Source of the DNA: Nemopilema nomurai | Taxonomy: Eukaryota > Cnidaria > Scyphozoa > Rhizostomeae > Rhizostomatidae | Direction of reading: 5' to 3' | Assembly: GCA_003864495.1 (NCBI GenBank) | Contig: ML133410.1 | Coordinates: 930,001 to 994,000, forward strand | Length of the DNA: 64,000 bases | Notes under the pieces: model-generated | Seen by the model: only the letters and a program-made list of their open reading frames with translations | The model's database searches: none | Told to the model about the DNA's origin: nothing | Shown: positions 26,914-64,000 of the stretch, in pieces | How positions within the stretch are numbered: the first letter of the stretch is position 1 | Layout of the letters: every line of letters begins with the position of its first letter | Translations under genes and position numbers: made by a program

Positions 26914-26921
26914 TATAAAAG
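26914..26921 (+). promoter_or_regulatory. TATA box (TATAAAAG) of the class C GPCR gene
   Basis: A consensus TATAAAAG lies about 100 bases before the chosen ATG, predicting a start site near 26945 and a 5'UTR of about 70 bases. With an intronless reading frame, this supports a compact single-exon gene. Confidence 0.6.
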
Positions 26922-27014
26922 CGGTTTTTGTTGTTGCGTGGCCTAACTGGAGCAAAAACCCTGTCACTGGTAGCGCAAAGTGATGGAGAGGTGCATTTTG
27001 GATCAGGCGTCGTG

Positions 27015-36793: not shown

Positions 36794-39700
36794 CTACTTA
36801 CAGCAATATGGTGGATTCTTTCCTGTTTTGAGGTAGTACTTTCCTCTGGCACTTCTGTCTACGTCATAACCCAAACGGGTGGACCTTGCGTTTTTGCAGA
36901 AGCCAAGGCGGAACACAGTGTAACGCGAGCACTTGTACGAGCGGTATACACATGGCGGAATGATGCTTTTCATAAACAAGTACACTGCACGGAAGTGACT
37001 GCATCTTGCCGCGTCTACGCAAAGAAGAAGGCCTTTTGTTACAATTTGATAGCCCTACGCCTAAACTAGAATCAACAGCTAGAACTTGTTTTGCTGATTA
37101 TATAGCATGGTGCAAAATGTAGGAAAATTGCATTACGTCATTGCACTTTATTACGTCATTGAGAAATGCTCACGTTTTCCCCCACAACCAGGCTGAGCTC
37201 CTCCGCCATTCACGTAGAAGTCAATGTGACCGGCTCTGCCTTTGACTCCGATAAAGTACAAGAAGCTTGTGTGGATCACGTCGACAAATTTTGCATCCGT
37301 GGAATCGAGCCTTGCTTTTATTTGGGTACGAGCAAAAACAGGTCCAGCGGGATCAAGGCCTGAAAATAAAATGCTATTCTGCCTTATAAGGACCGAATTA
37401 GGAAAGACATCATCTGTGCATGCGGCTATGAGCAGATACGAGGCTGTTCGCCAATTCAAACCTGAATATCGTGAACTGATGTGCATAAAGCATTTTATTG
37501 TAAAAGAGCTCTTAGCTAGAGTGAACGGGTATTCACTAATGTACCAAGGGTAGCTACAACTTGAGGAGGTATGGTGCCTCTTCCTAGCCATGCCACTTGA
37601 GAATAAAGTTGGGGAGGGCAAATTGGTTCGGGTCAGGCTTCTTGTAGAAAAACAGGCTACGTTTTAATGAGAAAACCAGTTCGTTATAGCACAAACCTGT
37701 TATGCGTGCAATGGTGTGTCCCTTTTCGCGCAGCCTTCTGCCTGCGAACCCAGCAGTCTGGGCACCAAGACTGAAGCCAATCAGATGCACCTTATTAAAG
37801 CACAATTTCAGGTCCAGGTGAAGGCGCACTATAAAGTAGGCAATTTGTGCTCCAACTAGGCGAGTGTTTCCAGCGGCTTGGAAATAATTTCGAGAAGCAC
37901 CATTTGGCCAATTTACAATGAAGACATTAAAGTCACCCCTTTTCAAAAAGTTGTCTTTCATTTCTAGCATCCATTTTGAGTATTTCTCTGCAAGAAAAGA
38001 GAACTTTGACATTACATGAGACGATAACTTTGGGCTCGAATAAAAAGCAACAAAAAACGAAGCAAAACCTGTGTGGAGAGATAGCCTACCTGTAGGTTTC
38101 ATATGTAAACCTGCAAAAGACTATTAATGAAGGAAAGTCAAAAAATTTAGACAATAAAGTATCGAGTGGGTGGAGATGACGGAAAATCAAAAACATTTTG
38201 ACAACGTCTTTTTAATGGATGCCCTGTTATACATATATATGTAGTGTATATGCATATTTACATTTTTTACTCAATTTAAATGCGTTTTGACTTGAAGACC
38301 AATCCAGCTAGAATTAACGTTTAGGCGAGTTAAGTTTACTAACCCTTCCATCCATGGATTATGAAGACAGTCGGTTTGCCTTTTGATAATCTCGCGCGTT
38401 TGACATTGAAAATCGAAATCCGTTTTCCGCGTCGGTCCTTTCGCGTGTACAAAACGAACTGAGTTCCCATTTTTCTTGGTGGTTGTGGCAGGACATTCCA
38501 GATTTTGCTCCAAGGGTATTTGTTGTTAAAGCACCCAAACGGACGGTAACACACTGTTTTTTCTGGGGATTAAGTGAAAAGGAATTAGCTGGGCAGAGTG
38601 TTCTAAGCTACATTTAGTATTATGTACTTAGAACCTCGTTTATTCAGCAGAGCCAATTACTAACGAAAATATGGCAATAATCTTGTTAATGAGCAGCTAT
38701 CTAAAGAATGCGACTTTAAGCCCCGGCAAAACGACTGGACATTTGCACTGGTCATGCACTGAACATTGCTCACTTGTTCAGTGTGTGGACATCCAGAAAT
38801 TTTGGTGGTGGCAAAACGACTGATCATTGTCCAGTGAACTTTCACACTGTGGAAGAATGCGCGCGGGAAAACTAGCTACAAAACCCTCCGGGCTCGTAAA
38901 AATCGCCGTACTCGTGCTCTCTGTCATCACTTTCATATCGGAATTAAAGTTTATATCTTCAGAAGACTCGTCGTTACCAATGAAATGCCTTTTCCTGCTC
39001 TTCTTCGAATTGAAGTTTAATGTTGATTCCATTTCTTCCCACGGTGTTTAAAGCTTGTTGAAGATTTGAATATTGGAAATAAATTGGCGCCAAATCCAAT
39101 CCATTACATTCATTGCGCGTGCGCGAACTGGACAATGTTCAGTAGAGTGGCAAAACGACTGAACATTTCTCTACAACATCTATGAACAAAATAATTTTAA
39201 TCCTGTCCACTGAACATTTTTGATTACCTTCAAAATCGACTGAACAACACTCAACATCACTGAACAAGACTGGACAAGGTGGCAAAACGACGCAACATTT
39301 ACGCTGGACATTTGTCCAGTGCATGTTCAGTGAAAATGTCCAGTCGTTTTGCCGGGGCTTTACATTGCTTAACCCTTGGGCGTGAAATCAGTTTTAACAA
39401 CACTAAAAATCTCGACAATACAATACTTCATAATGTTGCAAGTTTTGCTTCACCGATCGACACCTGATATCCGTTTTTAGTTATCAAAATATAATCAAGA
39501 GCACTGGGGTACTCTGGGTACCAGAGCACTGGGGTACCCTGGGTACCAGACTCACGAAGCTTTACATTGGCTACACATTGGCTCTTCATCCTTTACTTCT
39601 GATCAGTACCCCTAGACTTAAAATTCTGCTTTTTGCCTTATAGCCGTAGTCGAGACTCGAGAGAGTATACTTCTTGTGGCTTACTCTAGAAGATATATTA

Positions 39701-45700: not shown

Positions 45701-48700
45701 CTATCGTAGCCAGTTTTGGTACGGATCTATGCGGATCCGTTCCCGTGTAAACGGGGCCTTAGTACCCGCTAAATAGAAATGCCAGTGCTTCACAGCTAAA
45801 ACAAGAGCAAATGCTTCTTTGGTTGTTGGTGCCCATTGACGCTGTGAGCCTTTAAAAGCTGCGGAGAAATAGGCAACAGGATGTAGAAAGCCATCGTCTC
45901 CATGTTGAGATAACACCAGGGAGAAATCTAACTACAGCAAAGGAAGGGAATTTTTTTAGAGCCACGCCCTTCAGGCAGCCTAAAATGAAGGCCACACCCC
46001 TTTTATGTGAATACTATTTATGATCAAAATTTTAGTTAGTGGTCAGCGCTAAAATCATATAATAAAATCTAACAAAGGCTTTGAACCAGATCTACTTTCC
46101 CGATCCTCCCGATCACAGCATGTGCCCATTCAAAATAAGACTGTCAGCGACATGTCTCTCATCGATCCATGACGCATCGCAGGCAGCCTTCCGATTGTTA
46201 AGCCCTGGCCAAACGACTAGATTTTTCACTCGACTTTTCTCTATACAAAAATCTAGTGAGGAAATCTTGTCGTTTGGCCACCTTGTATAGAGTTGTATAG
46301 TGGATTTTTTTCATGTATAGCGTTTTTGATCTTGGTCAAAAAAATCTAGTGGATTTTCAAGCTGTATAGCGTTGTATTGTCGTTTGGCCGGTTTCTCGAC
46401 TTTTGTAGAGCGCGCGCATGCCCACTAATTGCTTTTCAGAAACTGCGCGCCAAACTGCTCGCTGTCGATTTTACTTGCTTACTTCACTGTTTGAGTTTCG
46501 CGGTTGTCGTTTTTTGCACCCGATTTGTTAAAGCATGGAGCTACTCGTTCATTATCATCATCAGATTCTAATAACAGTATCATTGCAAGTACTTTCCTTT
46601 GTCTGCCCTCCATTTTGCGATTAAGATTAAACTTTTTTGGCGCGCTGGGTGACGAGAATGAGATTTTCGCGAAAGCGAGATTCCAAGTTAGAAAGTCGAG
46701 CAAGTTGTATAGCGAAATGTCTAGCCGTTTGGCCACAACACTATACACCTTTTGATTTTTGGAATACAAATGTACAGCAAAAAGTCGAGTGAAAAATCTA
46801 GTCGTTTGGCCATTTTCAAAGGGAGATTGAACGCGACGCGAATCCCTACGCGGGGCCCCTAAAAATTAAGTCCCTATCTCAGGAAAAACATTTTGGGCTT
46901 TCGGTGCATCAGCCCTTGAATTGCCTGAGCAATGACATACTTTATGGTCGGTGTTTGATTCGAGGGAAAAAACTATCTCAGTTTTTTAACCCGCCAATCA
47001 TGCTGATACACCTGTCACGCAGTGAATACTGTGTGAAACTTAGCTGGAAGAGAGGGAGAAGGAGGTGTAGTAGGGGCAGGTAGGGAAAAAACAAAGTGAC
47101 AGAGGGGTGGGACTGGGTGGGGAAAAACGCATATACGTGGTGTGATCCACGTGCTGTGTAGCGGTCAATAACCAGATATGCTAGGGCACTGCCTTGTACG
47201 ATACCACGGGGTAATTAGTACACCAATAGTTAGCAAATTATGATTGACAGTCTTGTGGAGGTGGACGTGCAGCACGACACGAACCTCGAAATAGTTGTGA
47301 GGGCCTTCCCCGCGGCTATTAACTCGAATTAAAGATAAATTCCCATTTTACAAAGGTCAGTCTATCTGTTTATTGGTTAGTTAAACAAAAATTGCATAGG
47401 TCAACGTGTATCTTGATTGGCTATTTGAGTCTGCCCCATATTTTATTGGACACTTTTTACAACAATTGCATAGGTCAACTCGGCTTCTTATTCGACAGTT
47501 TAAATTTCACCTATGCTCGCGCCGAATTTAGCATAGCTCAACTTGCCTGGGATTGGCTTGACGAACGAAGCAACAGCAATAGCGGCAATAGGTTGTGATA
47601 TGATTTTTGTGGCATTGGGTGACGTTAATTGATGCAAAAAGAAATTGTTTTAGAAAATCTGACTTATGCTCGCGCAAAGGTTGCTAACGTCTAGATCCGC
47701 CCCTGAACACACCACCTGCAGCGTAATCACTAGCATCAACTTCGACTGTAAATGTTTCATTGAGCTTTGTTTTGATGTCACTTGTTGAGAATTTCTCCAT
47801 AGATTTGAGGATGCAGACCGCGCACGAAATAGTCTTTTGCCAACGTCGCGCGAGTCTCATTGTCGAAATCTGGGTAGGCTAATTTCACCAATTCCATCAA
47901 TTTGTATGCATAAGTATGTGCAGACTCCATTGCTTCCTCGCGATTTAACTGACCTTTCTCAAATTCTTTCAAGAGCTCTTGCTTTATTCTGTCAACTTGC
48001 TTGCCAAATTTTGCGCGCATTTCTCCTCGGTATACCCTTTGAGCGTCGAATGGAGCTCGACCTTGACGATGAATTCCTTTACATTTCCTTTGCCGTTAAA
48101 GAATTCAATTTTGTTTTCCATTTAGATTCTGTAGTAGAAATGTAGCCGTAGTCGAGACTCGAGTACACGCTTTTTTTAAAAGGAACCTTTCTCAAGGCCT
48201 AGTTCCAAAAGTTCCTTATTCGTAGACCTCAAATCGTCAGATTTTAGTACCAAAAGTTCCTTAAGTTCTCACTATTAGTGCTTTGACTTAAATAAGACTT
48301 AATACTTAATAGAGGGATGGGCGAGACAGCATATGCGGAAACTACTCAATGAAGCACTTGACACACAAATAGCAAACAATCTATGCGAGTATTGGCTGCA
48401 AATTAATGGAACGGGCTTTTTAGCTCTTGATGCTTGCAGTTATAAAAAGTTTTCAAATCGAAAAGTTCCTTAGGGATTTCGTTTTTAGTAGTATAAGTTC
48501 TTTATATATTTCGGCCTTCTACATGTAGGTTCCTTATAAAATGGTTCCTTATAAAAAATAAGCGTGTATACTTCTTGTGGCTTACTCTAGAAGATATATT
48601 ACAGAATACCAAAACATACAGCGCAGCGGAATATAAGCAAATGTAATCTAACAAGCAAACTTACTTTTGAAATGCCGCACAATTCCTTTTCCAAACTTGT

Positions 48701-50232
48701 TCATTTTTTTGCCAATCTCTTCCAATTTGTTTGCGACTTTCCCCAACTTTTTACCTACTTTTTTGAAGAGTTTTTTTGCTCTCCTGACCAAACGCTTAAA
48801 AAATGGTTTTGGATCTTTTCTGTAAATAAAGAGAAATTCAAAGGTAGGTTTCTATATTTCTGCATTTGAACGCTTGCGTAGAAATTAAAATCCATACCGA
48901 TGTCTGTACAGTACCCGCATTGATTAGCATCTATCTTCATTTATAACAAATATATTATACAGGGATTGCATTCAGCCTCAGGAACAAAAAAATTACTAAC
49001 ATCTATAATCCCTGTCGCTATAATGCAGGTTCGAATAACCACGTGATAATGCAGGGTCCACGTGATATAGAATTCCAAATCATCGAGTGCCTAGATTGAC
49101 AAAAAACCATTACCTTGCATTTTCCTCCTCTGCATATTCTGTCAAGTCGAGTTGCTGACCTTCTGCTTCTGCCAACATGAGATCTTTTTCGAAAGATTCA
49201 AGCGGCTCATTCTGTGTCGCCTCGCCTTCGTCGAAATCATCTTCTGTGGCGGCCGCAAGGAGGCGTTCCTCCGCAACTACGTCATTTTCGTGTCCAGAAG
49301 CCGCTGTACGAGAAAAGCCCGCGATGCTCAAAGTAAATGAAATATTTTGCATGTGTCATCTTTGCATTTTATTTTTGATACGTATTCAAAAGTTGACTGA
49401 ATGTGGTTACAAAGATAACTAGCTTTTACTATGCAGTCCTAATAGATTCAGCAAGCCCACTCTTTCAAACTGCTGCCCTTCCTATTAAAGTGTATCATGT
49501 TACTTAAAAGTAGACCCATTGTTGCTTATTTCTTATTATATTATTCAGAGGGGACACTGTTCAGCCAGAGGTACTTATTGATCCAGTTCCTTTACCCCAT
49601 TATCAGTACTGATGGATTTCTTTAGAGTTTGAAGGTGGCAAGGGGTTTTCTATCTGAATTACTAAAGTTGTAAACATTGAATATGGGTAATTCCTTGACG
49701 TAGGGCTCAAGCTTATTTGATTAGATTTGATATTCCTTTCAAGACTAAATTATCCAGCAAAAGCAGAGTGCTTTAAACTGGTTTTCCATTATTCTTGTTC
49801 CTTTATCCCTTTCTTCTATCGAGAATTTGCATTTTGCTTGTTATACTCCATTAAAGCATTAAAGCATTTGCTTGTTATACTCCATTAAAGCATTACCGTG
49901 TTTTGCGGGCGTTCCCAAAAGTGGGCATGGCCCTCTATCGAGTATAAAACGATTTTGAGAATGTCAGATATTTTCCTGGATCCGCCGCGGACTTCAAAGT
50001 TATGACAGAATCAAAGGACGGCTCTTGCGAACGTCGTTAGTCAAGCAATTGCAAAACATACCGGGTTCGTCCTTAGCACAGACAGACTATGGAAATGTTT
50101 ATCTTGACATGGAAGAAGAGATCATCCTTATAACAAACCAGTTGCAATCTCGCAAAACTCATTCTGCCATTGAAAATACTTACACAAGAAGGCGGCGTAA
50201 CCAAACAACAAGCAAATAGTCAAACACTTCAT
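36794..50232 (-). CDS. Lipase B: secreted PLA1-like lipase with acidic propeptide and cationic amphipathic segment (complete, 436 aa)
   Basis: Seven phase-consistent exons in order: 50184-50232, 49114-49303, 48665-48819, 38344-38562, 37697-37987, 37174-37359, 36794-37014. Exon 1 is a signal peptide (MKCLTICLLFGYAAFL). Exon 2 is a strongly acidic, about 62-residue propeptide with ESFEKDLMLAEAEG and LDLTEYAEEENA. Exon 3 adds 51 residues after an Arg, with 20 Lys/Arg against 3 Asp/Glu (net about +17) in a helix-like spacing (FFKRLVRRAKKLFKKVGKK). The lipase domain follows: VCYRPFGCF, VFIIHGWKG, nucleophile Ser in GFSLGAQ, Asp in GLDPAGPVF, His in CSHFRA. The lid between bracketing cysteines is 7 residues, as in phospholipase A1 enzymes. 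Translation stops at PPYCCK, so no PLAT domain. Intron 3 is 10.1 kb and packed with transposons; the joining phase (A + AA) and the near-identical exon layout of gene D justify linking the exons. The acceptor lies 3 nt before the ATG, implying a 5'UTR exon upstream. Confidence 0.85.
38719..39359. mobile_element. Harbinger-like MITE (641 bp, TTA target duplication)
   Basis: Terminal inverted repeats begin AGCCCCGGCAAAACGACTGG and are flanked by TTA on both sides (38716-38718 and 39360-39362). The interior is full of short inverted copies of ACTGGACATTT and CACTGAACA words. A 3-bp TTA duplication is typical of the PIF/Harbinger superfamily. No transposase is encoded. It lies in intron 3 of lipase B. 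Confidence 0.85.
39500..39550. repeat. Short tandem duplication of a GAGCACTGGGGTAC unit
   Basis: Two near-identical copies of about 26 bp (gagcactggggta, then ctgggtaccag) lie back to back beside the retroelement's 3' LTR. Simple local duplication. Confidence 0.7.
39639..39786 (-). repeat. 3' LTR of the gypsy-like element
   Basis: On the minus strand it starts TGTAGGGTTATACCCC directly after a purine-rich tract and ends at CTACGGCTATA. About 115 bp match the LTR at the other end, with scattered substitutions, indicating an old insertion. Confidence 0.75.
40800..41310 (-). pseudogene. Retroelement integrase, distal part (rve core and C-terminus)
   Basis: Reading minus-strand frames gives integrase core motifs (IHGTPHFLLSDQGSN, VYHSQGNGFAERNIRNVKD) and then, after a frameshift near 41010, the downstream segment (TPFKVVFGSDFRLP). 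The proximal half lies beyond a transposon inserted at 41311. Ty3/gypsy-type by motif. Not functional. Confidence 0.85.
41311..44659. mobile_element. Mutator-like foldback transposon with arms of about 1.4 kb and a 9-bp target duplication
   Basis: Bases from 41311 (ACTGTCTTATATAGGCC) inward are mirrored by the sequence ending at 44659; the arms run to about 42693 and from about 43277. The 9-mer CACTGCTTC flanks both sides exactly (41302-41310 and 44660-44668). Removing the element and one copy of the 9-mer restores a continuous integrase reading frame, which fixes the borders. A 9-bp duplication and very long inverted repeats point to the Mutator (MULE) superfamily. Each arm also has internal repeats of a segment containing CAGTTTACTCTTAATAACTT. 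No transposase is seen. Confidence 0.88.
42822..42998 (-). CDS. 58-codon open frame in the unique centre of the foldback element
   Basis: The single-copy spacer between the arms holds a 58-codon frame starting MSELLNFEKVLQDGAAKR and rich in basic residues (GKRSPAKIWKR). It may be a fragment of the lost transposase, a captured host exon, or chance. I do not recognise the family. I list it because it is the only non-repeated potential coding stretch in the element. Confidence 0.25.
   Translation of the reverse strand: MSELLNFEKVLQDGAAKRTWGIRGQTLNRAGKRSPAKIWKRGVSVKQNKSSFVRAMIL
44669..45390 (-). pseudogene. Retroelement RNase H end, integrase zinc finger and proximal integrase core
   Basis: Minus-strand frames show the RNase H tail (NADHNPLVHLR, GRWISELEEYDYTVTYIRG), then a linker, an HHCC-type zinc finger (HNMAHFGTDKTYSLL to CIYCQQTK) with two in-frame stops, and the integrase core start (MQFIAIDVAYMPKTNKGYEY). 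It breaks exactly at the 9-bp duplication of the foldback element. Confidence 0.8.
45391..45758. mobile_element. Harbinger-like MITE, GGCCCCGTTTACACG family, copy 1 (368 bp)
   Basis: Terminal inverted repeats start GGCCCCGTTTACACGAGA and are flanked by TTA on both sides (45388-45390, 45759-45761). The interior repeats GGATCC/GGTACGGAT words. Deleting the element plus one TTA restores the retroelement RNase H reading frame. A second copy lies at 60649-61067. Confidence 0.9.
45762..45916 (-). pseudogene. Retroelement RNase H, middle part
   Basis: The minus-strand frame encodes LSQHGDDGFLHPVAYFSA, then QRQWAPTTKEAFALVLAVKH and WHFYLAG, the typical Ty3/gypsy RNase H order. It is bounded by a MITE on the 3' side and by a larger insertion on the 5' side. 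Confidence 0.85.
45917..47705. mobile_element. hAT-like insertion in the RNase H remnant (1.8 kb, tentative)
   Basis: The segment begins CAGGGAGAAATC and ends GATCCGCCCCTG, short imperfect inverted ends of the CAGGG type common in hAT elements. The flanks share AACAC (left ATAACAC, right AACACACC); a larger duplication with a 2-bp indel is possible. RNase H sequence stops at one edge and resumes at the other. The inside has no recognisable transposase and holds another MITE. Confidence 0.5.
46201..46812. mobile_element. MITE with AGCCCTGGCCAAACGACTAG ends, nested in the hAT-like element
   Basis: Inverted ends (CCAAACGACTAGATTTTTCA and its complement near 46785-46812) enclose about 610 bp, with further internal copies of CGTTTGGCC. 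The left flank is TTA; the last bases of the right end have diverged. The ends resemble the 38719-39359 element (AGCCCCGGCAAAACGACT), suggesting one Harbinger-type lineage. Confidence 0.7.
47706..48121 (-). pseudogene. Retroelement gag remnant joined by deletion to the start of RNase H
   Basis: From the ATG at 48121 (MENKIEFFNGKGNVKEF) the gag frame is interrupted near 47990 and continues in another frame (DRIKQELLKEFEKGQL, YFVRGLHPQI) to a stop at 47778. Immediately after, in yet another frame, comes the RNase H opening (TVEVDASDYAAGGV). Protease and reverse transcriptase have therefore been deleted between them. Confidence 0.8.
48141..48658 (-). repeat. 5' LTR of the gypsy-like element, split by a MITE
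   Basis: Matches the 3' LTR on both sides of a 401-bp insertion (48166-48566). The outer end stops at GCAA, six bases from the lipase B exon 3 splice donor, and lacks about 29 bp present at the start of the other LTR. Confidence 0.75.
48166..48566. mobile_element. TA-flanked MITE (401 bp) in the 5' LTR
   Basis: Inverted ends CACGCTTTTTTTAAAAGGAA and TTCCTTATAAAAAATAAGCGTG are flanked by TA on both sides, and the uninterrupted LTR copy has TA at the same site. A TA duplication suggests a Tc1/mariner-type element. It contains several AAGTTCCTTA/TAAGGAAC words. Confidence 0.8.
49849..49895. repeat. Direct duplication of CATTTGCTTGTTATACTCCA-type unit in lipase B intron 1
   Basis: TTTGCTTGTTATACTCCATTAAAGCATT occurs twice around 49830-49895, about 34 bp apart. 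A small local duplication with no obvious role. Confidence 0.6.
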
Positions 50233-51211
50233 CTTCTGAAATCCTGAAAGGAGAAAACAAAATCAAATTTCTATATAAAACTGGATCGTGGCATTTGGAC
50301 TTTAGCTCCTTTCGAAAACACATTACATCGAAGATAATCGTATCATAATTTTGGATGTACTTTCACTATCCACATTCAGCTTCATTATCGCTAGAGTTGG
50401 TAGTACTTTCACCCAAAACTTCGTAGCTGATGACACCAGCTTGGAACTGCCTCGAAAATGTGGTAGCTCTCGAACCCCTATTCATCTTTGATACGGAAAA
50501 ATTGTCAGATGCAGAGAGATGGGGGATTTGAAGGTGGAGCGTGGAACCAAATCGATATCAAAATAACATCGTCCAAAGAAGGCAACTGATTGCATTGGCA
50601 TTCTCCCTTCGATTGGGACTTGCTCATTTGCAAAGCAGTGTAAAAATGGGAAAGGAGTTATAAGTGTGACAATGCATAGAAGGGGTTCTTACCCGCCTGT
50701 TTGGTTCGTCGTAGGGTGGTGCACTGAATTGCTCTGCTGCTTCGCTCGGTCTTTTATGTGGACATTACGCGCTGTGATTACGAGAATAAAGAAACAATAA
50801 GTCGCATTTAAGTTGAATGGCAGATCTGCCTCCAATCGTTTATTTTTTTTGTCTTGGACAATCAGTTTCTCATCTTTTGTTATCAGTAGGAAAAACGAGA
50901 GGATTGATAGGAAATTCTTTTGTTGTTGGTGGTTAAGGATTTTCGTTCCTTTAGAAGGGATTTTTTCCTGAATAAGCGAAGGAAAAAGGCAAACAAACTA
51001 TAGTAGAGGAAATACCTAAAGGTGTAGGAAGTTGATAATTAGCTAGACCCCTGCTTCATATTCCCACTACCAAATCTCGTCAAAAAATTCGTCCGTTTTG
51101 GGACGGTCAATATAAACGTCATAAGCTGGGACGAAAATAACGAAATGGTAAACACCGAAGTCGTGTAAGATGTAGTTCTTCCTGCCTGATGTAAATGAAC
51201 CATTTAGAATC

Positions 51212-51715
51212 TGATTATATGAGAGTTTTCAGCCCGGGCTGGAATTTCAGCCCGCCTAGCCGAGGTGAAATTGATGGGCGATTATATAAGAGTTTTCAGC
51301 CCGGGCTGGAATTTCAGCCCGCCTAGCCGTGGTGAAATTGATGGGCGATTATGTGAGAGTTTTCAGCCCGGGCTGGAATTTCAGCCCGCCTAGCTGAGGT
51401 GAGATTGATGGGCGATTATATGAGAGTTTTCAGCCCGGGCTGGAATTTCAGCCCGCCTAGCCGAGGTGAAATTGATGGGCGATTATATGAGAGTTTTCAG
51501 CCCGGGCTGGAATTTCAGCCCGCCTATCCGAGGTGAGATTGATGGGCGATTATATGAGAGTTTTCAGACCGGGCTGGAATTTCAGCCCGCCTAGCCGAGG
51601 TGAAATTGATGGGCGATTATGTGAGAGTTTTCAGCCAGGGCTGGAATTTCAGCCCGCCTAGCCGAGGTGAGATTGATGGGCGATTATGTGAGAGTTTTCA
51701 GACCGGGCTGGAATT
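51212..51715 (+). repeat. 67-bp tandem array, about 7.5 copies
   Basis: The 67-bp unit starts GATTATATGAGAGTTTTCAG and contains the palindrome-like CAGCCCGGGCTG plus a second CAGCCCGCC. Copies differ at a few positions (for example TATAAG/TATGAG, GCCGAGG/GCTGAGG). An inverted, shorter array follows at about 52010-52250, making the whole a foldback. Confidence 0.92.
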
Positions 51716-52009
51716 AACTACTGTTTTCGCGCGATTTAAAAATTGTTTCGCAAAAAATGGCGCGGAAGATGTTGTCCTTCTATGTTCTCCAATTCGGCGC
51801 TTTATTAGCTCTACAAGGTATTGCTTTACCTTGTCTGCGCTGAAGTAACTGTTATTTTATCTCCCGTTTTCCATTGGAAGCGTTCTTTGCTGCTTTCACA
51901 TGCTTCGGCCATCTTTGACGAGCTACTTTTTGGTATTTTGGCGCGAGCTGTACTCAAAATGCTCGTGCGCAAATTACATTCTCAGCCCAGGCTCGAAAAA
52001 TTTGCGATT

Positions 52010-52250
52010 ATATGAAAAATCTCAGCCCGTTCACCCGGTCTGAAAATCCCAGCCCGCCTGGCTCAAGGAGGGCAGAAATTCCAGCCCGGGCTGAAAACTC
52101 TAACATAATCGCCCATCAATTTCACCTCGGCTAGGCGGGCAGAAATTCCAGCCCGGGCTGAAAACTCTCACATAATCGCCCATCAATTTAATCTCGGCTA
52201 GGAGGGCAGAAATTCCAGCCTGGGCTGAAAACTCTCATATAATCATATAA
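52010..52250 (-). repeat. Inverted partner array of the 67-bp unit, about 3.5 copies
   Basis: The same unit as 51212-51715 but reverse-complemented (CAGCCCGGGCTGAAAACTCT, TAATCGCCCATCAATTT). The outermost copy at each side mirrors the other, as in terminal repeats of a foldback transposon with about 300 bp of unique centre. Confidence 0.85.
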
Positions 52251-53566
52251 TCCGCCCATTAGCCATTTTCAAATCAAGCAATTTCAGGTAAAGAAATTTC
52301 GAGTAGGAAGTTCTTTTCAATATTTGTTTCCTTGGAACAATAGAGATGCATAATGCACCAAATTATCTAAAGTACAATTCTTCGCTTTCTTCCTTCCTTC
52401 ATTTCTTTCTTTCTTTACTTCTTTCATCCTTCATATGTAACATGCCGCTGCCTCCGTGGTTTCGGCGCCCTTGCGTGTAATTCTTCCACCCTGGTGTAAA
52501 TGAAACATTTGGCCTTCTTAAGAGCCATTTTCAAATCAAGCAATTTCAGGTAAAGAAATTGCGAGTAGGAAGTTCTTTTCAATATTTGTTTCCTTGGAAC
52601 AATAGAGATGAAATTGAAGAATTCGGTGGCTCATTGGAAAATAAGTCACTGTCCTGATACCTTTTTATTGGAACCAGGCATGCAAAACGAGAGCTTATTC
52701 TCAAATCAAAAGGACAAAGAAGCAGCACTGATTGCCATTACAATGATTGGGGGCAACCCCAGAGCTATTTCAACCCAGGGTTTTGTTGCTAAACGGTCAT
52801 TTTGGACATTTCGTGTCTCTGTACAAACGTCTCACCTTGGTGTGCAGTCGCACGTGCAAACGGTAAAACAAGGTAAGGCCAGGTAATTTTCGGTGTTTCT
52901 TGCCATTTCTCACCAAATTCGATTTCACGTGTACTGTTGTGTAAATTCCCAGTCTTCTTTATTGTGCTGGTTCTTTTTTATTTTGTGGAAGCATCACCGG
53001 CGAAAATCAAAGGTTTCCAGAATTATAACTTTCACATCTATGATCTCAACGGTATGGGGTGATAAAGTCTAAAATGTTCACCACACTGCTGTAGATAACA
53101 CGTAGCCAATCTCCTCGGCGGAATTTCTAGGCAAACAGATAAGCAAGAAGTGCAACCTATAAGTATCAACGTCCACTTTGATCTTCGTTTTGAAATTTTT
53201 AGTTGAAACGACAAACTCTCTCTGTGCACAAAGAAGGTTGACAGAAAGAGTTCATCGCTTCACCTAGACCCTTAACCATGTTACACGGGGGCCAAGCGAA
53301 ATGAACAAAAATGCAACTGCTTCTATAGCAGAGGCAAAAGAGTACGGATGGCAATTCCGAATAGAACAGTCCCGCGGACACTTGATGCGCAAATGAATCT
53401 GTACTAGTTTTGAATCGGTTGTGCTCGGGTCTGCCATTTGGCTCCTGTCTGTTCCGTGCTATTTGGAACTTCTCGGTTTAAGACCGTGTTCATTATTTGG
53501 ATATGCATTTATTTTAGCTACTTAATTATAAGGTTGATATGGTATTGTCCTTTTAAATTTCAGAAG

Positions 53567-56500
53567 ATGAAGGCTTTGGTCATTTGCTTGTTGCTTGGTT
53601 CCTTGTCATTTTGTAAGTATTTCCAATGAGAGTAGCGGCATTTATTCAGAACTTAAGAAACTTTTATCTTTTACTTTAAAGTCAATACATGGTTAAGCGA
53701 ACATTTTATCATCAATCGATCGATTATAACGTGTGTAGCACTGGTAAGCTATTTATTAAAAGTGAATACCATAATTGAAAATCAAAAGGAAAGTCTCATC
53801 CTTGCAGAAGTGGCTTTTTCAGTAGAAAGATGAGGACCTTTTGGCAAGATTGGGAAGGGGCTGGATGGCCGGTGAACCGCTAAGCCAGTCCAACTCAGTC
53901 AACGTCATTTCAAATTAGATTTATACCGATCTTCTGGTTCTTCCATTCTCTCTCTTTCTTTCTTTCTTTCTTTCTCTCTTTCTCTTTCTTTCTTTCTCTT
54001 TCTCTCTCTCTTTATTTCTCCCTTTCTCTCTATCTTTCTTTCTCTCTCTCTTTCTCTCTCCCTTTCTCTCTATCTTTCTTTCTCTCTTTCTTTTTTTCTC
54101 TGTGCATGTTAACAAGATAAAATAAGAGAACCCTTTTTGATCTCGGTGTTACCCAAGACAGTTGAAGGGGGGTATTCTATCAGAATTTCAAGTTAGCAAG
54201 AACATGGACGATATCACTACGATTCGCGCCGTAATCAATAGTTTATTAAAAAATAAAAATTGATTGAGAAAATGAGCTGTAATCATTACTAGAGTTTAGG
54301 ATTGAATAAGCTTGAGATGATTGAAGTCATATGCATATGCAAGCAAAATGAAAATGCACCTATCAGGATATCGCGATATAAAGGCTCTACAGTTATTTAT
54401 TGGAGGCCCATATGCCATCATTATGTCCGTAAGTGCCCCACCCTCTCCGGAATAATTCTCATGGAGGCAATGAAAATTACCCTTACAGGTGCAGTTGCTC
54501 ATGGCAGCAAAGAAAATGACGCAACCCCCTCGCAGTACGAATTAGATGATATCTTGATAGAAAACAAGGCTACGGAGAAAGACCCATCCATAATGGAAAA
54601 CGACAGTGCGTACGGTCTGAGCGACGTTGGGAAGGAGGACGGTGTTACGTAAGCATGCCTTGTACTCGCAGCATTGAGCTATGAGAAAGGTTTAGCAGCG
54701 AATGCAGGTTTCAGGGAGCCACTGAGATGCACTTATTGTCCATTTCCATATTACGTTGATTGCCAAGCAAGGTGTGGCAAACCGCAGATCCAATCGGCCT
54801 GATTTTCTGCATAGTACACCTTTGGAAATTGATTTTGCTGAAAAATTCAAGCCATGTAATGTCTAGGCTTGATTGATACCGATTGCAAATATACAGAGCG
54901 TACGATAGGGTGAAATAAGTTGTCTACTTTCGCTGCACTCTCTTTCGCGCTTTGCCTGTCATTCATTAATACCAGCGCTTTGCCCTGTAATGCGTGACTT
55001 CGAAAGTGGAAACTCGCCTTCACACAGGTAGCCTATATATCTGACTTCTCTTCATTTGTAGAAAAGACGCAACGCAAGCCAAGTCTAAAATCGTGCAGTA
55101 TGGCATATATTTGGCCATGCTGGGGAAAAGTAAACAGACGTTCTTCCGAAGTAAGTACGCAGAATCGTGATTTAGTGAACAGCATATGCCGGCATGCGGT
55201 GCTCGGCCTTTCCTTCTTGCTGAAGAAAACTTGAGGCAAGGAAAGGAGTTTTGGAAACTGAAGTAGGATGTTTCAGTAGTTCAAATTGAAAGCGTTATGA
55301 AAGTTATTCTTTACCAATCGTGAATTGAGCGTCACGTGACTTTAGTTGTTGGTTCTTTTACTAACGATTGTATATGTATGACTTCTCACCTTAGCGTGTA
55401 CAGATGCAAATAGTCAAGACGACTTGTTTTTTGTCAATTATCATTTTAACTATCTACACGACTATAATAAAAACAATTCAACTAAGGGAAATAACTAAAA
55501 CAAAGCGAATAGAAAGCTAGGCTACAAAGCGAATGTAAATGCCATAGAAATATTAGTTGTTGTGTGCAAGTTTAATGTGTGGCTGAATATATGGCTGATT
55601 AAGTGCAAATAAAATGCTGTATTAGAATTTCACTTAAGCAAACATTCAAGCTCTTTGATACAAATCAAGTACTTTGGTGAAATGCTCTTCTCGTATTCTG
55701 TAAGGAAATGTGGTCTGCTATCGCCCATTTGGGTGCTTCAGCAAGGAACGTCCCTGGAATAGGGTCTACAACTTCATACCAAACCCACCATCTCAGATGG
55801 GAACAAAGTTCATTTTGTTCACACGAAAAGCCCCAAAAGGACAAGAAGTTCCTATTTTCAAAGTGAAAGCTTCGCGAATTTCTGGTCGCAAAAGGACCTT
55901 TTTCATAATACACGGATGGCAAGGTTGGTACTTTTTTGACTTCAATCATGCAACCGTCAGCTCTGGCTGAAATTCATTGGTGGAATTCATTCATTAATTG
56001 AGGCTGTTAGTTGAAGAGATGCTGGTTGGAATTCATTAGCATCTCGTTTTAGCCACGATGAGTTAAAATTGGCATCTTGCGTTTCAGAGACAGAAAAGTC
56101 AGCATTATGGATGATAGCAATGAAGAACGAGCTTTTGAAGAGAGCTGACGTCAACGTATTCATTGTGTATTGGACCCAGGGTGCCGCTCCTCAATATTTC
56201 TTGGCTGCAGCCAACAGTCGACTTGTGGGGGCACAAATTGCTTATTTCGTAGAGCGTCTCCACAAGGACAAGCGATTGTGCTACGACAACGTGCATTTGA
56301 TCGGCTTCAGCCTTGGTGGCCAAGTAGTTGCCTTTGCCGGCAAACAGCTCCGAAAGAAGGGACACCTCATTTCGCGTATAACAGGTTTGTATTACAGCTT
56401 TCATTGATCATTGCAGCAGTGATTATCAGCTGTCAAGGCTGCACATGCAGTCAAAGGAGGTTAGATAGAGAGAGGGATGTGTGCGAATAGAAGTTCATGA

Positions 56501-57707
56501 TGATGTTGGTTTATAGTGCCGGAGAAATGGCACTTTGGGTTCCATAGCCAAGGTTTGAGGCCTCTGGAAAACACCTGAAGCATGTTTGCTTGTGAAACTA
56601 CCAAAATGCTCAATACTATGAGGATAAAGTAATTTGTAAGCAACTTTTCTAAACTGTATACACCCATAAAGAGAATACAAAAGCAAAAATGCTTCAAAAC
56701 TTGCTTCCGTGTTTTAAAAAGAATACCATAATGTTTACAGTTTAAAGAACACACAAAAGCAGTGTCACGGTTGTGGAAATGGTGAAGGTACAATAATTTG
56801 CATCGAGCACGATTACCCAGAGGTCCATCCATGCTTGCCTACCTTGCACACCCCTCTGTACACACCCCACTGCTAAGCTTCTAAGTTGCCCTTTACCTCT
56901 AATTGACGCTGAAGTCTGTTTAACCAATGTGCTCCCACCAATGTGCTTAGGTATTATTCGAACCTTTCAGGCCTCGACCCAGCCGCACCCCTCTTCACTC
57001 ATGAGCCAAAGGAAAAGAGACTGGAGTCAGGCGACGCCAAATTCGTTGACGTCATCCACACTAGCTACTTGTACTATGTTGGAATCAAGAAAAGATCCGG
57101 CCACGTTGACTTCTACGTGAATGGCGGAGGAGCTCAGCCTGATTGCACAGGAACACGTAAGCATTTCTCAATGACGTAATAACGTGACGTAATATCGTAG
57201 TACTGCAAGCTGTTTGACAATTAATTGTAAACCAAATTAAACCTTTCAGCTGTTTATTTACAAAAGTTTCAGTTATAGGTCAGCAGGTAACATCATAACC
57301 TTACACAATTACCCTTTGACAAGCATTGTACTCCCCCCTTAAAGAACAGCAGACATTCAGCCTTAGTTCCCTTCGTGCGGTACATTCTTAATTGGGCTGG
57401 TCAGCTAGCAGATACTGGGGACGGGGGTGTGCCCGTGAAAATCGATCAATTTGTTTTACAAGTGAAGATGCAACACCATTTTTCTCCTGCAGATGCATCG
57501 TCGTGCAGCCACTTCCGTGCAGTGTACATGTTCATCAAGAGCATCAACAAAGGCTGCAGATACCGCGCGTACAAATGCCCGAGTTTCGTCGACCTCTGTC
57601 TTGGCCTCTGCAAAAATGCAAAGACGACTTACCTAGGCTTTGACACAAACAGAAGAGCCAGAGGGACCTTTTACTTGAAGACAACCCTAGTGCCGCCATA
57701 CTGTTGA
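53567..57707 (+). CDS. Lipase C: secreted PLA1-like lipase with diverged pro-module (complete, 403 aa)
   Basis: Seven exons with the same phase pattern as gene B: 53567-53612, 54489-54648, 55062-55150, 55705-55923, 56088-56384, 56971-57156, 57493-57707. Exon 1 is a signal peptide (MKALVICLLLGSLSF). Exon 2 is an acidic propeptide (DDILIENKATEKDPSIMEND). Exon 3 is only 89 bp (155 in B and D) and mildly basic (AKSKIVQYG, LGKSKQTFFR), so the cationic segment is reduced. Lipase domain: VCYRPFGCF, FFIIHGWQG, nucleophile Ser in GFSLGGQ, Asp in GLDPAAPLF, His in CSHFRA. The lid between cysteines is 7 residues. Translation ends at PPYC with no PLAT domain, as in B. Exons 4 and 6 have exactly the same lengths as in B. 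Predicted secreted phospholipase A1-type enzyme; the substrate is not known. The C-terminal half is Cys-rich and well conserved with B. Confidence 0.88.
53940..54105. repeat. CTTT/CTCTTT-rich microsatellite in lipase C intron 1
   Basis: About 165 bp of nearly pure pyrimidine (TTTC and TCTC words). The reverse frame gives a spurious Lys/Arg/Glu-rich peptide, which is not a gene. Confidence 0.9.
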
Positions 57708-59922
57708 AAGAAGGACTGTCTCCTTTAGATATAGACACTACAGGGACATTTGCTTAGCACTCTCCCAGTGCGAGTAGACTTCAAGGTTTTCTTCATATTA
57801 TCTTTCCTAGGAATTCAATCTGTTATTCTTGTTATTTGCATTCTCATTCTGTTAATACTTCCTTGTTTATGAAAATAAATTGAAAAGATCGGATTGACAA
57901 GCAAACACCGTTTCTAGAAATACCATACCCAAGAGGGGGCTGCCCCCAAATTGTTGAATGCCTGTCAAAATGCTTGGTTAGCGGCAATCTCTCTTGGTTC
58001 AACAGGGCTGAGCAACTCCCTCCTCAATTAACGTGGAATTTTCTATTCACATCACATCCCCTCAAAATTTCTGTAAATGTGAATTCTATAAATGTAATCA
58101 ATACCCTATGCCTGCGGAGATGTTTAAGTATTTTTGGAGATCTTGTACAAAATATACCCCAAAAAGTCACAACTTCGGATACTCAAATGAAAGCTCTCTA
58201 CAGGTTTTGACGATAGTGTTTGATCTATAGACGTGATGATGAAATGTTTTCTTCATTTAATAATACGTCTTGTATGCTTTGCTTTGATCTAATACAATTA
58301 CCAAAATACAATTAAATGAGTTAAATCTCTTCTTTTTAGTACACATTTAACCATTTCCGATACCATAGAGATCCTAACCTCTAAGTCGCTTGTTTCTGCG
58401 AAGTTTTATGCTTACATGCTTATATTAGTGTATGCTTATTCTCAAGGGAAAGTTGGTAGGGTTGAATACATGTTGCTTTGAGATAAACATTATTCCTTAT
58501 ATGTGCTGCTATTGAAGACGTTTTGAAGATTTTTTGTGTTTTTATCCTTTGTTTGTCGAATAGAAATCCAACTGCGTGGCAATGAGTCCTTCTCGACACT
58601 ATTGCAATTTGCTTTTCCTTATCTTTCAGCAACCATGAACTGATAATTACTTATTGCAACTAGAGATTATTTGCAAAAATAAATGTTAATTAGCGAGGAG
58701 GTCTACAATATTGTTTCTACTGAGGGGAAGTTGAAAGAACAAAAACCCTAGGGTGCCCCTTGGCTCAGGCCGAGAAAGCCCATGGGGAAATGCGTCACTG
58801 TCGCTAGCTATTCAAAGTCATTTTAGCATCCCACTTGAGAATATAAGCACTGCACTATATGACAAAAATTATCCTTATCTTAAACGGGACAAAAGACGCT
58901 TGTCGCTTTCACCATTAATCATACCAAAGCGACATCACTCGCAGTTATCAAAATCACTAGCTGAAATGATGGCTATAGTCTTCTCTACATCGAAAGAATG
59001 AAAATACAAGAAAAATCATACACAATAATGAAGCCTTTCCAACTGTATCACTCCCAGCTCTGGGTTGTCTTGCGAATATGCATTGACTCCTGTGATATGT
59101 GGCCACCTTTATAGTTTTGGGACAATAAACCAAACTTTAACGACCTGAGAGACCTTTAATAAAAATACTTAACTTTGTTTTCAGACACAGAAATGATCGA
59201 TTTGAATTATACTGCCTTTTTATCGAGGCACTCCCTGAAGAAGCAGATCGAAAGAATTTAAAGCATTTTCTCGAACCTGTCCTTCATTGACAAAGGACTG
59301 AAATTAAAACCAACTGGGAAATTTTTGGTGGCAGTAAGGCCGACTCGTTATCAGAGCGAGGTGCGTAACCAGTGCACGAGAGCAGTCTGAAAATAGGAGG
59401 AGGAGCTTGAATCCTTCAGGTTCTTAAACCAGAAAATAATGTACACCATTATCTATTTATGCCAGCTTATGGTTCCATGATAAACTTCCAGGTAGCATTG
59501 AAAATATGCAACAAACTCGACCGGGGATGAGAAAATGTCAAAGAGTTCAAGAAAAGGGCACAAGGCTTATGATTGGACTCCTGAGTCATCAAAGTTTTTA
59601 TGGTTTAAGATAGTATGAAGTTCGAAATTGATAAGGCTTTGATATGGTGATTGCAATCTGAATTTTTGATTGTAGTTTGATTATGATGCAAAACGATATT
59701 GCCGATTTACTTGTGGGAATATTGCTTGTGATTACGATCAAACATGATTGTCTAAAGATCACGATTGCATTGAGGAACAAAAGTGAGATTGTGACTGTAG
59801 TTGTAATCACAGCAGAGATATGTTTGATTGGTTGCCATCATGCGAAACATTTAAATCTCAAGCAAGAATGACTAAAAATCATCAGCACTACCATTTCGAC
59901 GACGTTCGGTTGCAGTCAGAAG
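57708..59922. other. Intergenic region between lipases C and D
   Basis: About 2.2 kb with no coding similarity seen. It contains the lipase C 3' end and should contain the lipase D promoter and an untranslated exon, because the D start codon is also preceded by a CAG|AAG acceptor. Confidence 0.5.
57874..57879 (+). terminator. Polyadenylation signal AATAAA of lipase C
   Basis: AATAAA about 170 bases after the lipase C stop codon, the first consensus signal downstream. Confidence 0.55.
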
Positions 59923-62900
59923 ATGGGGTTTCTGGTCCTCTGTCTTGTTCTTCTTTCTGCCCTGCATTATCCTGCATGTAAGTATACGTAGCTCCGCTAT
60001 ATATTATCTGATATCGGATTGCTGCCAATGACAGACCATGTTTTATTCGTTCGTGTCGATGCACACAGAAAAAGCAACATAAAACAGTCAGTTGCCCTCT
60101 TTCATAGAGAGGACAGCCATCTCTGCGTATCACCATAAAATATACCTTTGCTAGGCAGATGCCTAATAGCATGGTAGTGGGGTTTTGATTGTACTATTCA
60201 AGTCGCCCCAGGCTTGGTCAACACTGCCTTAATTCATTGCCATGCATAATATGTTTAACTTAAAAGGAGCCTATGAAAATGTCTGGATCAAAATGAAAGC
60301 TGCATAAAGTTGCAAACGGATGCCTCAATAAACCGTTACTAAGAAATAGAAGAAACCATTTGCTGTGAATTGACCTTTCAAACATCCACCACAAATGTAG
60401 CCGGTGTTCCGAGACGGACAAGCACTAGGCCTATTGGCAAAGACCTCTGCAACTCGAGATACGCTGCCCTCACGCCCTCCGTAAATTGGATCAGTTTTTC
60501 CGCTTTGCATTTTCCAACTTTTTTTTACCCTCTTCCCCTGAATATATACAGGCGTTGATGGCTCAGTTTTTTTATTCTTTGTTAAGACTTCTTTTAGACA
60601 TTATCATAAACAACTAAAAGGCGGTCCATAATAAAGCCTTAAAATTTAGGCCCCGTTTACACGAGAGAAAGAGGAACGGATCCAAAACATCCGGACCTTT
60701 TAGGTACGATATGGGTACGATCCACAAGCGTCTACATGAGATCGGATCTTAAACTATAAAGCGTTTACAAGGGAAAGGACCAAAAGCGAATCTCACTTTT
60801 TAAGCATGCGCAATGACAAGGTGATTGTTAATTTTCAATTTTTGTAGTCTCGTTTCACTGCCGTGCCTTTGCGGATCCGTACCCACCCGTTTACACGGCG
60901 CCGATGACGTAACGGATCCAAATGAATTCGTTTTCTATTCGTACCCAAAAAGGTACGGATCTCTCCAAGAAAAAGTACAGATCCTACCGTGCCCGTGTAA
61001 ACGCAAGGCCTATCGTAACCAGTTTGGGTACGGTTCTATGCGGATCCGTTCCCGTGTAAACGTGGCCTTAGTCCTCCCATAACTTGGATCCGAGAGAAGT
61101 CTAACTTTTTAAACTAGTAGAATAGGTGGTAGTAGTATAGGGTAAACTCCTCTTTGATCCACAGCTTTCGAGGGTCAAATAACAAAAGCATAAAAGCGTG
61201 GAAGAACTAGAAAGTTTGATCATAGCTGCTTTGTATTAATTGAAATATTCTGTTGTTGACCTGCTCTTTCGTTCAAAGGCAGATATGGCTATGCGCTGGT
61301 AAAGATCCATCTAAGAAACAGAACAATAGGAAGAGGTTGATTCGAATACTCTACCATGCTTTTTCAACAGTTCTGGAGAAGCAAGATTGTCGTTGAAAAA
61401 TTAGCTTGTTATTTCAGATGAATATGATTATAAGAAAGTTATACGAATAATGAACTAAAGCAAATAATAGGAATATAAATCAATAGCTGAAATTTGCAAC
61501 CAGAAATCATAAAAGAAAATAGCGCTAGCTTGAAGCATAATATGGTATCATTTTCCTAAAGCCTATCTTCCCTATTATTGGAATGCAGCACATTTGTTCA
61601 AGCGTTGGACGTGTACGTCGCGTAAGACTCGCGTAAAAGTTGCGTATAAGTCACGTAAGAATCGTGTAAGAATCGCGTAATAATCGTGTAAGAGTCGCGT
61701 AAGAACCGCGTAAGAGTCGCAGAAGAACCGCGTAAGAGTCGCGTAAGAATCGAGTAAGAATCGCGTGAGAGTCATGTCTTGCTTGCAGTTTGGACGCTTA
61801 ACTGAAAAAGCTTAGCTTGAAGTGAGAAAGTACCTGAGAACTCTCAAATTGGCCCACAGGTGCACGACGGCAGAAAGTCATAGAGGATGAAGATGAGCGA
61901 ATACTCGCAATAATCAACAGCCGACGCGCTTTGCGCAAAGATGAAATAAAAGACCCCATTGATGCTTTCGAAGAGAAGCTGATGCTAGCAGAAGCAGCGG
62001 GGCCCCGCTTGAACTTGACTGAAATTGCGGTGGAGGACTTGGGTGTACAAACTATGCCATCGGGGAGGTACATAACACATTCACTTGACACTGCGCAATT
62101 GCTGAACATGGGTATTCTTAGATGGTCTCAGTATTATTATCAGCATCGTACAGGCAGCCTTGTTCTACATGCCTTTTTCAAAGCCTCTCGCAGCCTTGTC
62201 TGTAGAACTGGAGTACAATATTCTTAGACCATAATTTTATTCAAGCAAAATGCATATAAGGAGCGATGCATTTGAAGGTTAATTCATGACCGCACACATA
62301 GCCAGTGATGAAGGAACCAGGGGGCCGGAGCAGGAACTACACACGTGTTCAGGTGTGGAGCATTTGCAAAGGCTGCGAGGCAGAAACTGCGTGGGTAGGA
62401 CCAGCTTAACAAAAGATTTAAACAAAAGTCGTGCCTCTAGTCCGTTCAATTTGGTTCGCATGTTATGAATGTGCTGGTTAGCTTTATGCAGGATCGTAAG
62501 AGGTACATAAACAGTTCCTAAGTTAAACAAAAAATGCTTGAATGGCTAAGAGAAAGAATGGTGGAGAAAGGCTAAAAGAGAAGGGGAATAAATCTCTGAT
62601 CCCGATTGCTTAAGCGATTATGAAATAGAGACGCAATTCTGTGCAAAACAGTCTACCGCCTAAGATTGCTACTTGAAAGGTAGTGTAGCATCAAGCTGAT
62701 TTCGAACCCTTCTCTGGTCACAGGAAATCTCAAGACTCTCTGTTCAAGCGGTTATCTATGAGAGCAACAAGCCTCTTCAATGCAGCGAAGAAAAAAGCAA
62801 AGGCATTCAAAAGTAAACTGGAGAGGATTGGTGAAAGTTTGTCCCATGGAGTAATAAGACTGATCAATACTTTCAAATGTGAGTTGTTGCCCTATACTTA

Positions 62901-64000
62901 CGTCTATCAAACTGTCATATATCAATGTCACAAAATATTATGAATTCGAAAAAAGTTTGCAATGGAAGTACGGAGCTGTTTCTTAACAACAAGAAATAGA
63001 ATGTCATTGATGAAGTTTCTTTACTTCCTTTTTCTAATTTCCAGCGGGAAAGGTTTGCTACGAGCCTTATGGATGCTTTACCAATCACAGCCCTTTCAAC
63101 AACGTCTGGAATTTGCTTCCAAAGACACCACGTGAAATAGGGACAGAGTTTGTTCTGTACACAAGGGAAAACTCCCAAGGCGAAACCATCACTATTTCCA
63201 GCGTCTCCTCAACAGATTCTTCAAACGATAAAGAGACTATCTTCATCATTCATGGATGGACAGGTCAGTTGGCTTGGAATTCGCTAGCAAAGGGGGCGTA
63301 GTCTCTAAAGTTTCTAATGAAGAGTAAATCTGGCTGGTCCTCTTTGTTCCTACTCTGGCTCGGTGAGCCATCTATAGATGATATCAGACAGTAGTATCTA
63401 GATGTGAAGCTCACACCTGCTCCAACCAAACCCATCCACAACATATATACAACAAAGAGAAAAGATTTTTGAAAATACTGCTAAAACACATTCATGATTC
63501 TTTACTGAGGGAAGAGAGAAGAGGGGTGGATGGGGTGGTACTTTAGTGCTTAAAAAACCAGGTTTTCATAAATTGTCAATTTCTACCATTCGATTTTCTA
63601 CAAGAAATATTGTATCAACAAAAGATTCTCATTAAGAATTTATAGACTGTGGAAAACACTTGCTTGGTGTTTTCCAGCTAAAAACAAGCCTATATGCAGG
63701 GAAAGTATTGCGGCAAATGTAACTTAGTTGGGCGGCAGGTCTAGTATCGCTAAGGGGGATACTCTATGCTGTCACTCAAATTGAATGCTCTAGAAGTCTC
63801 AGTTTTTCTAGATGTGAACGACACCCACTCACAGTTTTAGACTAGATTAATGGGCATTTACAAGAGCATTCATCTCATCTGCATTATCCTTTGCATTGTA
63901 GAAGGCCATAAAACATCTTGGATAAAAAAGATGAAAGACAAGCTTTTAGAACGCAATGATGTCAACGTGATTGGAGTGTACTGGGTAGATGGTGCAAAAG
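59923..64000 (+). CDS. Lipase D: secreted lipase with acidic propeptide and cationic amphipathic segment, 3' end off the right edge
   Basis: Exons seen: 59923-59977, 61860-62067, 62724-62878, 63045-63263, 63902 to the window end. Exon 1 is a signal peptide (MGFLVLCLVLLSALHYPA). Exon 2 is the propeptide, with IDAFEEKLMLAEAAGPRLN and LTEIA, the same block as in gene B. Exon 3 is 155 bp, exactly as in B, and encodes 51 residues aligning without gaps to B's segment (shared FKRL, RA, LF, KK, KLE, IG, FK); 13 Lys/Arg against 3 acidic, net about +10. Exon 4 is 219 bp, as in B and C, opening the lipase domain with VCYEPYGCF and IFIIHGWTG. Exon 5 (KKMKDKLLERNDVNV, GVYWVDGAK) leads toward the catalytic serine, which lies outside the window. 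Catalytic competence cannot be judged here. Intron 1 carries a MITE and a minisatellite. Confidence 0.85.
60649..61067. mobile_element. Harbinger-like MITE, GGCCCCGTTTACACG family, copy 2 (419 bp)
   Basis: The same ends and GGTACGGAT/GGATCC interior as the copy at 45391-45758, again flanked by TTA (60646-60648 and 61068-61070). It is about 50 bp longer because of an internal insertion near 60820-60875. It lies in lipase D intron 1. Confidence 0.9.
61619..61774. repeat. 11-bp minisatellite (CGCGTAAGAGT type), about 14 copies
   Basis: Tandem copies of an 11-bp unit, CGCGTAAGAnT, with scattered substitutions. Because 11 is not a multiple of 3, all frames read a periodic 11-residue pseudo-repeat, an artefact rather than a protein. 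It lies about 85 bp before the propeptide exon of lipase D. Confidence 0.85.

Follow-up and report, generated by a model that had tools for sequence, protein, structure and literature searches.

Lipases of the jellyfish Nemopilema nomurai predicted to carry an acidic propeptide and a cationic amphipathic helix in front of a phospholipase-A1-type domain

Melittin, the frog skin peptides and the Hydra arminins are made as precursors in which a signal peptide is followed by an acidic segment and by a cationic amphipathic peptide, and this peptide ends the precursor. A stretch of 64,000 nucleotides from the jellyfish Nemopilema nomurai (assembly GCA_003864495.1, contig ML133410.1, positions 930,001 to 994,000; called here the window, C44:930001-994000) holds lipase genes whose predicted precursors show the same order of signal, acidic and cationic amphipathic segments and then continue into an intact-looking lipase. 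The two exons for the acidic propeptide and the cationic segment, termed here the module, are most pronounced in gene B and recur in genes C and D. We read the products as secreted, mostly very basic phospholipases A1 (PLA1) in which the acidic propeptide would mask a membrane-seeking helix, with helix and enzyme acting together, and we give this a probability of about 0.5. The first-pass annotation of the window had stated that it knew of no pancreatic-lipase-family protein with such a build; none was found in the literature searched, which covers subscription journals thinly and lies outside supplementary files, so that the architecture, as far as this search reaches, is added to a very well studied enzyme family.

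The Pfam Lipase profile was searched over the whole genome (212.9 Mb, 226 contigs) and gave 22 exon matches, which belong to genes A to D of the window, to two places at about 465-473 kb on C44 and to one place on C18. Exon models of B, C and D were made by eye and with a script, and their splice sites and frames were checked. The three genes are alike, with seven coding exons and phases 1, 2, 1, 1, 1, 1 before the last; the order is signal peptide, acidic propeptide, cationic segment and four lipase exons. Gene D extends beyond the end of the window.

50184..50232, minus strand: gene B exon 1, signal peptide, ends in phase 1
49114..49303, minus strand: gene B exon 2, acidic propeptide, net charge -18
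48665..48819, minus strand: gene B exon 3, cationic amphipathic segment, 51-mer of net charge +17
36794..38562, minus strand: gene B exons 4-7, lipase, Pfam PF00151 (38344-38562, 37697-37987, 37174-37359 and 36794-37014, the last with the stop)
53567..53612, plus strand: gene C exon 1, signal peptide
54489..54648, plus strand: gene C exon 2, acidic propeptide, net charge -9
55062..55150, plus strand: gene C exon 3, short degenerate basic segment, 29 residues, net charge +5, non-amphipathic
55705..57707, plus strand: gene C exons 4-7, lipase (55705-55923, 56088-56384, 56971-57156 and 57493-57707)
59923..59977, plus strand: gene D exon 1, signal peptide, top-scoring candidate of the exon scan
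61860..62067, plus strand: gene D exon 2, weakly acidic propeptide, net charge -3
62724..62878, plus strand: gene D exon 3, cationic amphipathic segment, 51-mer of net charge +10
63045..63263, plus strand: gene D exon 4, start of the lipase domain
63902..64000, plus strand: gene D exon 5, cut by the end of the window and continuing to 64195 on the same contig

Gene D ends at 65851 in window numbering, on the same contig. The module exons of B (49114-49303 and 48665-48819) and of D (61860-62067 and 62724-62878) had been proposed in the first-pass annotation, and their coordinates, splice sites and frames proved correct. Gene C (53567-57707), not part of that proposal, shares the exon plan as a third lipase, and its module is a natural degenerate form.

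The module is found in other proteins. P0001 from Rhopilema esculentum spans all of B at 66% identity, module included, and P0002 (also from Rhopilema) and P0003 span B at 60% identity. P0005 (Rhopilema isoform X4) has the module and lacks the part that the first lipase exon encodes, a pattern suggestive of alternative splicing near the module. Furthermore, two contigs of 1521 and 1308 bases encode P0006 and P0007, in which a signal, an acidic segment, an Arg-rich basic segment and a lipase stand in one uninterrupted frame. These contigs are probably spliced messages, because the jellyfish genes have six introns. By these sequence comparisons the module is not local to the window, being shared with Rhopilema and with the diverged P0006 and P0007.

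Such homologues, with all parts in one frame, and a frame test in B bear out the earlier proposal of one precursor rather than separate non-lipase genes. In B and C, omission of exon 2, of exon 3 or of both leads to an early stop, and only the complete exon set reads through the lipase. A signal exon joined straight to the lipase exon, which the first-pass annotation had named as an observation that would refute its proposal, thus ends in a stop in these two genes; in D, omission of exons 2 and 3 together keeps the frame. The propeptide and cationic exons could still be separate peptide genes adjoining the lipases, as the length of intron 3 in B (10.1 kb) might suggest: if this intron were retained, the protein would stop five residues past the helix. 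However, the corresponding intron of D has merely 166 bases, and the lipase of B stays in frame only with the module exons. With the Rhopilema records, the two single-frame homologues and the lack of further module copies in the genome searches described below, separate peptide genes are very unlikely.

The 10.1 kb of intron 3 in B contain two direct repeats of 98 bases (39660-39757 and 48561-48658), 93% identical and separated by about 8.9 kb, together with repeated units of 178 bases and an integrase-like frame whose weak match lies below the cut-off (E 0.0092, 16.7 bits against 32.6). The splice donor is intact, and the second 98-base repeat begins six bases into the intron. The segment 39660-48658 is retroelement-like and would represent an insertion starting six bases from the splice donor.

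Queried with the module of P0001, the genome returned the propeptide exon of B (E 2.0e-11), its cationic exon (5.4e-9) and the propeptide exon of D (2.6e-6), while the cationic exon of D reached only E 0.95. Single-sequence queries from B, D and P0001 retrieved B and D alone and found no further module copy in the genome; strongly diverged copies could escape such searches, because the module of gene C itself escaped them.

The charges of the module differ between the three genes. Counted per exon with the border residues, the propeptide and the cationic segment have net charges of -18 and +19 in B, -3 and +11 in D, and -9 and +6 in C. The 51-mers carry +17 in B and +10 in D, as first described, and the basic segment of C is a 29-mer of net +5. 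The propeptides of B and D had both been called acidic; this holds fully for B (-18), and that of D (-3) is only weakly so. The balance of acid and base is strong in B and weak in D. The gapless alignment claimed for the two 51-mers stands, with 18 of 51 residues identical and a BLOSUM62 score of 69 against -33.4 +/- 15.3 for shuffled sequences; between B and P0001, 26 of the 51 residues of this segment are identical. In the same way, the block FExxLMLAEAxG reported from B and D is present in both and also in P0001 and P0003, and P0002 has LMLAEADD at this place.

The amphipathicity of the cationic segment was evaluated by its helical hydrophobic moment in eight segments (those of P0008-P0010 left out) against shuffles of the same composition. 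The mean moment exceeds that of the shuffles in seven of them (p 0.0005 to 0.003), among which B (p 0.0005) and D (p 0.003) had been proposed as amphipathic from the start. The segment of C is not amphipathic (p 0.61). The peak moment gives weaker values (p 0.028 for D, p 0.022 for P0002). When all 11,532 stop-free stretches of 51 residues in the six frames of the window are ranked by the moment, the segment of B comes first and a stretch overlapping that of D third among separate places, the second being a tandem repeat at 61602. A tandem array with an 11-base unit (TCGCGTAAGAA, 13.9 copies, 61618-61770) lies immediately before exon 2 of D, and it is the translation of this array that takes the second rank. 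The layout of antimicrobial peptide precursors that had been recognised in B and D is thus present in B, and also in P0001-P0003, P0006 and P0007; D departs from it by its weakly acidic propeptide, and C by a basic segment that is not amphipathic.

Concerning the enzyme, B matches Pfam Lipase (PF00151) with E 1.7e-73 and 248 bits against a cut-off of 27, over profile positions 2-336, and the lipase exons of C and D also match this profile in the genome search. The catalytic Ser-Asp-His motifs (GFSLG, GLDPA and CSH) are intact in B, C and D. The lid has 7-8 residues and the beta-9 loop 12 in B, C, D, P0001, P0002, P0006 and P0007; the lid of P0003 is of a length that could not be measured. For lid and beta-9 loop, PS-PLA1 has 12 and 13 residues and conventional lipases have 22-23 and 18-19, in the available text of PMC9031518. 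Our count gives 17 for the beta-9 loop of the hamster lipase P0014, where the published lipases have 18-19 (same source), so the two scales differ by one or two. From sequence and model, B, D and their Rhopilema relatives are predicted to be secreted single-domain enzymes of PLA1 type within the pancreatic lipase family. The lipase part itself is mostly very basic. Its net charge lies between +16 and +46 in 10 of the 11 members of the clade described below, with individual values of +41 (B), +28 (C), 0 (D), +45 (P0001 and P0007) and +46 (P0006).

P0001 was modelled with AlphaFold2 from 40 aligned sequences (mean predicted local distance difference test score, pLDDT, 82.8). Residues 40-87 have a pLDDT below 50 and appear as disordered, a single helix of 45 residues occupies positions 90-134 (pLDDT about 71-88), and the first lipase strand starts at 137. 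A Foldseek search with this model places pancreatic lipases and their relatives on top and lipoprotein lipases next; the hornet PLA1 4qnn ranks 18th with a template modelling score of 0.82 by target length.

A midpoint-rooted tree was made of 48 lipases (gene A and 47 of the 186 lipases counted below, with P0004 and P0005 left out). B, C, D, P0001-P0003 and P0006-P0010 form a single clade with 100/100 support, in which D is the first branch as drawn. Within it, strong modules (B, D, P0001-P0003, P0006 and P0007) are intermixed with weak ones (C and P0008-P0010), and two changes are needed. We read this as an ancestral module that was reduced twice, a count of changes that does not prove the direction. 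The module might also be an ordinary removable prosegment under weak constraint, whose charges drift and whose helix has no function of its own. The propeptide and helix are indeed less conserved than the enzyme (55% and 51% identity between B and P0001, against 73% in the lipase), and several clade members are without a strong helix. Yet P0006, which has only 9 of 62 aligned propeptide residues in common with B, keeps the charge pattern (-18 and +18) and the amphipathicity; the values for P0007 are -18 and +15. As strong modules furthermore recur in D, in the group of B and P0001 and in P0006 and P0007, mere drift is unlikely.

The module is rare among lipases. The 186 lipases consist of B, C, D and 183 retrieved proteins, which were the top entries listed from 1446 and 681 matches. 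An extension of at least 25 residues beyond the first 20 occurs in 73 of the 186, and only eight (B, D, P0001-P0004, P0006 and P0007) reach a net charge of at least +8 over the last 50 residues ahead of the lipase. The next value, +7, comes from a Thr-rich stretch of the bivalve protein P0142. P0004 and P0005 are misplaced by this method owing to a disrupted or absent lipase start, and P0005, which carries the module, falls outside the eight. The idea that the module is a general feature of animal lipases is contradicted by these 8 of 186 in the best-match set, all from one group. A search with the module region of P0001 gave five records, P0001-P0005; it says little on diverged modules, because P0006 and P0007 were not reached.

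Our preferred reading, in which the helix and the PLA1 act together, can be put as follows. The precursor would consist of a signal peptide, a disordered acidic propeptide, a cationic amphipathic helix of about 45 residues and the catalytic domain. While the precursor is secreted, the propeptide would hold both the helix and the enzyme, which is mostly very basic, in check; once the propeptide is removed, the helix could bring the enzyme to anionic membranes, or disrupt them, and the two would act jointly on targets such as bacteria or damaged prey cells. The helix might then be cut off as an antimicrobial or lytic peptide, or be retained as a docking arm. The net charges of propeptide and helix are correlated (r = -0.90) across the 11 clade members, which are related proteins, so that the points are not independent.

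Besides this dependence, several observations weigh against the joint action of helix and enzyme. C and P0008-P0010 keep the enzyme while the strong helix has been lost or was never present, so the helix is not required by all clade members. The propeptide of D is nearly neutral (-3) and its lipase part has a net charge of 0. Since the skipping of exons 2 and 3 leaves D in frame, a module-free form of this protein is possible. Finally, a short beta-9 loop is also found in P0024, P0027 and P0030 (10-11 residues).

A stronger form, which does not exclude the preferred reading, is a precursor with two products, in which the helix would be set free alongside the PLA1 and be antimicrobial or lytic in its own right. 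The order of signal, acidic and cationic amphipathic segments is that of many peptide precursors. An alignment of 11 clade members (P0004 and P0005 left out) shows a basic residue at most three residues before the (V/I)CY start of the lipase in all 11, and an adjacent basic pair in seven. These basic residues at the border of helix and lipase would permit release of the helix; however, basic pairs are weak evidence of it in a segment with so many Lys and Arg residues. The solved pancreatic lipases start at this same border, their alignments beginning at chain residue 1-3. The alignment contains no conserved cleavage motif at the border of propeptide and helix, and in the model of P0001 the helix runs straight to the lipase fold. 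A Pfam scan of the N-terminal parts of B, D and P0006 linked them to no known peptide family, with no match for B and D and one match far below the cut-off for P0006, which likewise speaks against a released peptide. Compared with solved structures, the cationic segment of B matches designed coiled coils, apolipoprotein A-IV and similar low-complexity sequences. Bees and wasps produce comparable pairs of lytic peptide and phospholipase from separate genes. In scorpions, PLA2s provide a precedent for a phospholipase plus a second chain from one gene, in the available text of PMC12897845. Two products released from one chain are a tentative possibility, and the same caution applies to a two-weapon precursor in which a cationic lytic peptide and a cooperating PLA1 would be kept harmless by a charge-matched acidic propeptide.

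Conversely, the helix could stay on the enzyme and bind sulphated sugars, mucus or the acidic matrix of secretory granules or nematocysts, with the propeptide only aiding packaging or folding. The continuous helix that abuts the lipase fold in the model of P0001 and a lipase part that is very basic in 10 of the 11 members would fit such docking or sorting, and lipoprotein lipase, of the same family, binds heparan sulphate. PLA1 is also named as a possible constituent of nematocyst venom in the available text of a study of Nemopilema nomurai and Cyanea nozakii (PMC5331427), without a link to these genes. On the other side, amphipathicity above shuffles in seven of eight segments exceeds the needs of sugar binding, and the lipases of Chrysaora, which are of other families, were seen at the transcriptome level but were absent from the venom proteome, as far as the available text of PMC4848628 goes. 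A role limited to docking or sorting thus appears rather doubtful.

With these genes, the joint delivery of a membrane-active helix and a phospholipase by a single chain becomes directly testable. One animal offers natural variants with a strong (B), a weaker (D) and a degenerate (C) helix and a relative without a helix (A). The module may explain the role of some jellyfish lipases, be it in defence within mucus, in digestion or in venom. The word lipase is absent from the main text of a cnidarian peptide mining study (PMC11820242), in so far as this text was available, and the available part of a review (PMC12250223) mentions pancreatic lipase-related proteins once.

In gene A (30893-33965), the signal exon is spliced straight onto the lipase exon, with phase 1 on both sides; because of this junction, the module exons of the other genes have the look of a pair that sits in a phase-1 intron and leaves the frame unchanged. 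The model of its last exons is not correct, and its Rhopilema relative P0022 has longer loops (beta-9 17, lid 12). The lipase genes outside the window (C44 near 464980-473132, C18 near 43190-45858) were compared by tblastn, and one of these matches contains an in-frame stop. An open frame of 946 codons at 26919-29759 resembles by eye a class C G-protein-coupled receptor.

Among described proteins, the pancreatic lipases and pancreatic lipase-related protein 2 are the best matches in sequence and structure, with the same fold and triad. The jellyfish proteins differ by the acidic and cationic segments added before the enzyme and by a very short lid. Furthermore, solved pancreatic lipases have a C-terminal domain, whereas the models of B, C and D end after the lipase domain. 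Extracellular PLA1s (PS-PLA1 and hornet venom PLA1) have a short lid and beta-9 loop in common with the jellyfish proteins, and hornet PLA1 aligns over its full length; we know of no acidic/cationic module in these enzymes. The group III PLA2s of scorpions also derive a phospholipase and a second chain from one gene. They belong to another enzyme family, the jellyfish domain being PF00151 Lipase and not that of group III PLA2, and an N-terminal basic helix is not known as their second chain. Human group IIA secreted PLA2 is likewise a basic secreted phospholipase, comparable by way of working only, as to our knowledge its fold is unrelated and it has no separate cationic helix. The charge of this human enzyme (+14) directs its action to anionic bacterial surfaces, according to the available text of PMC8658914.

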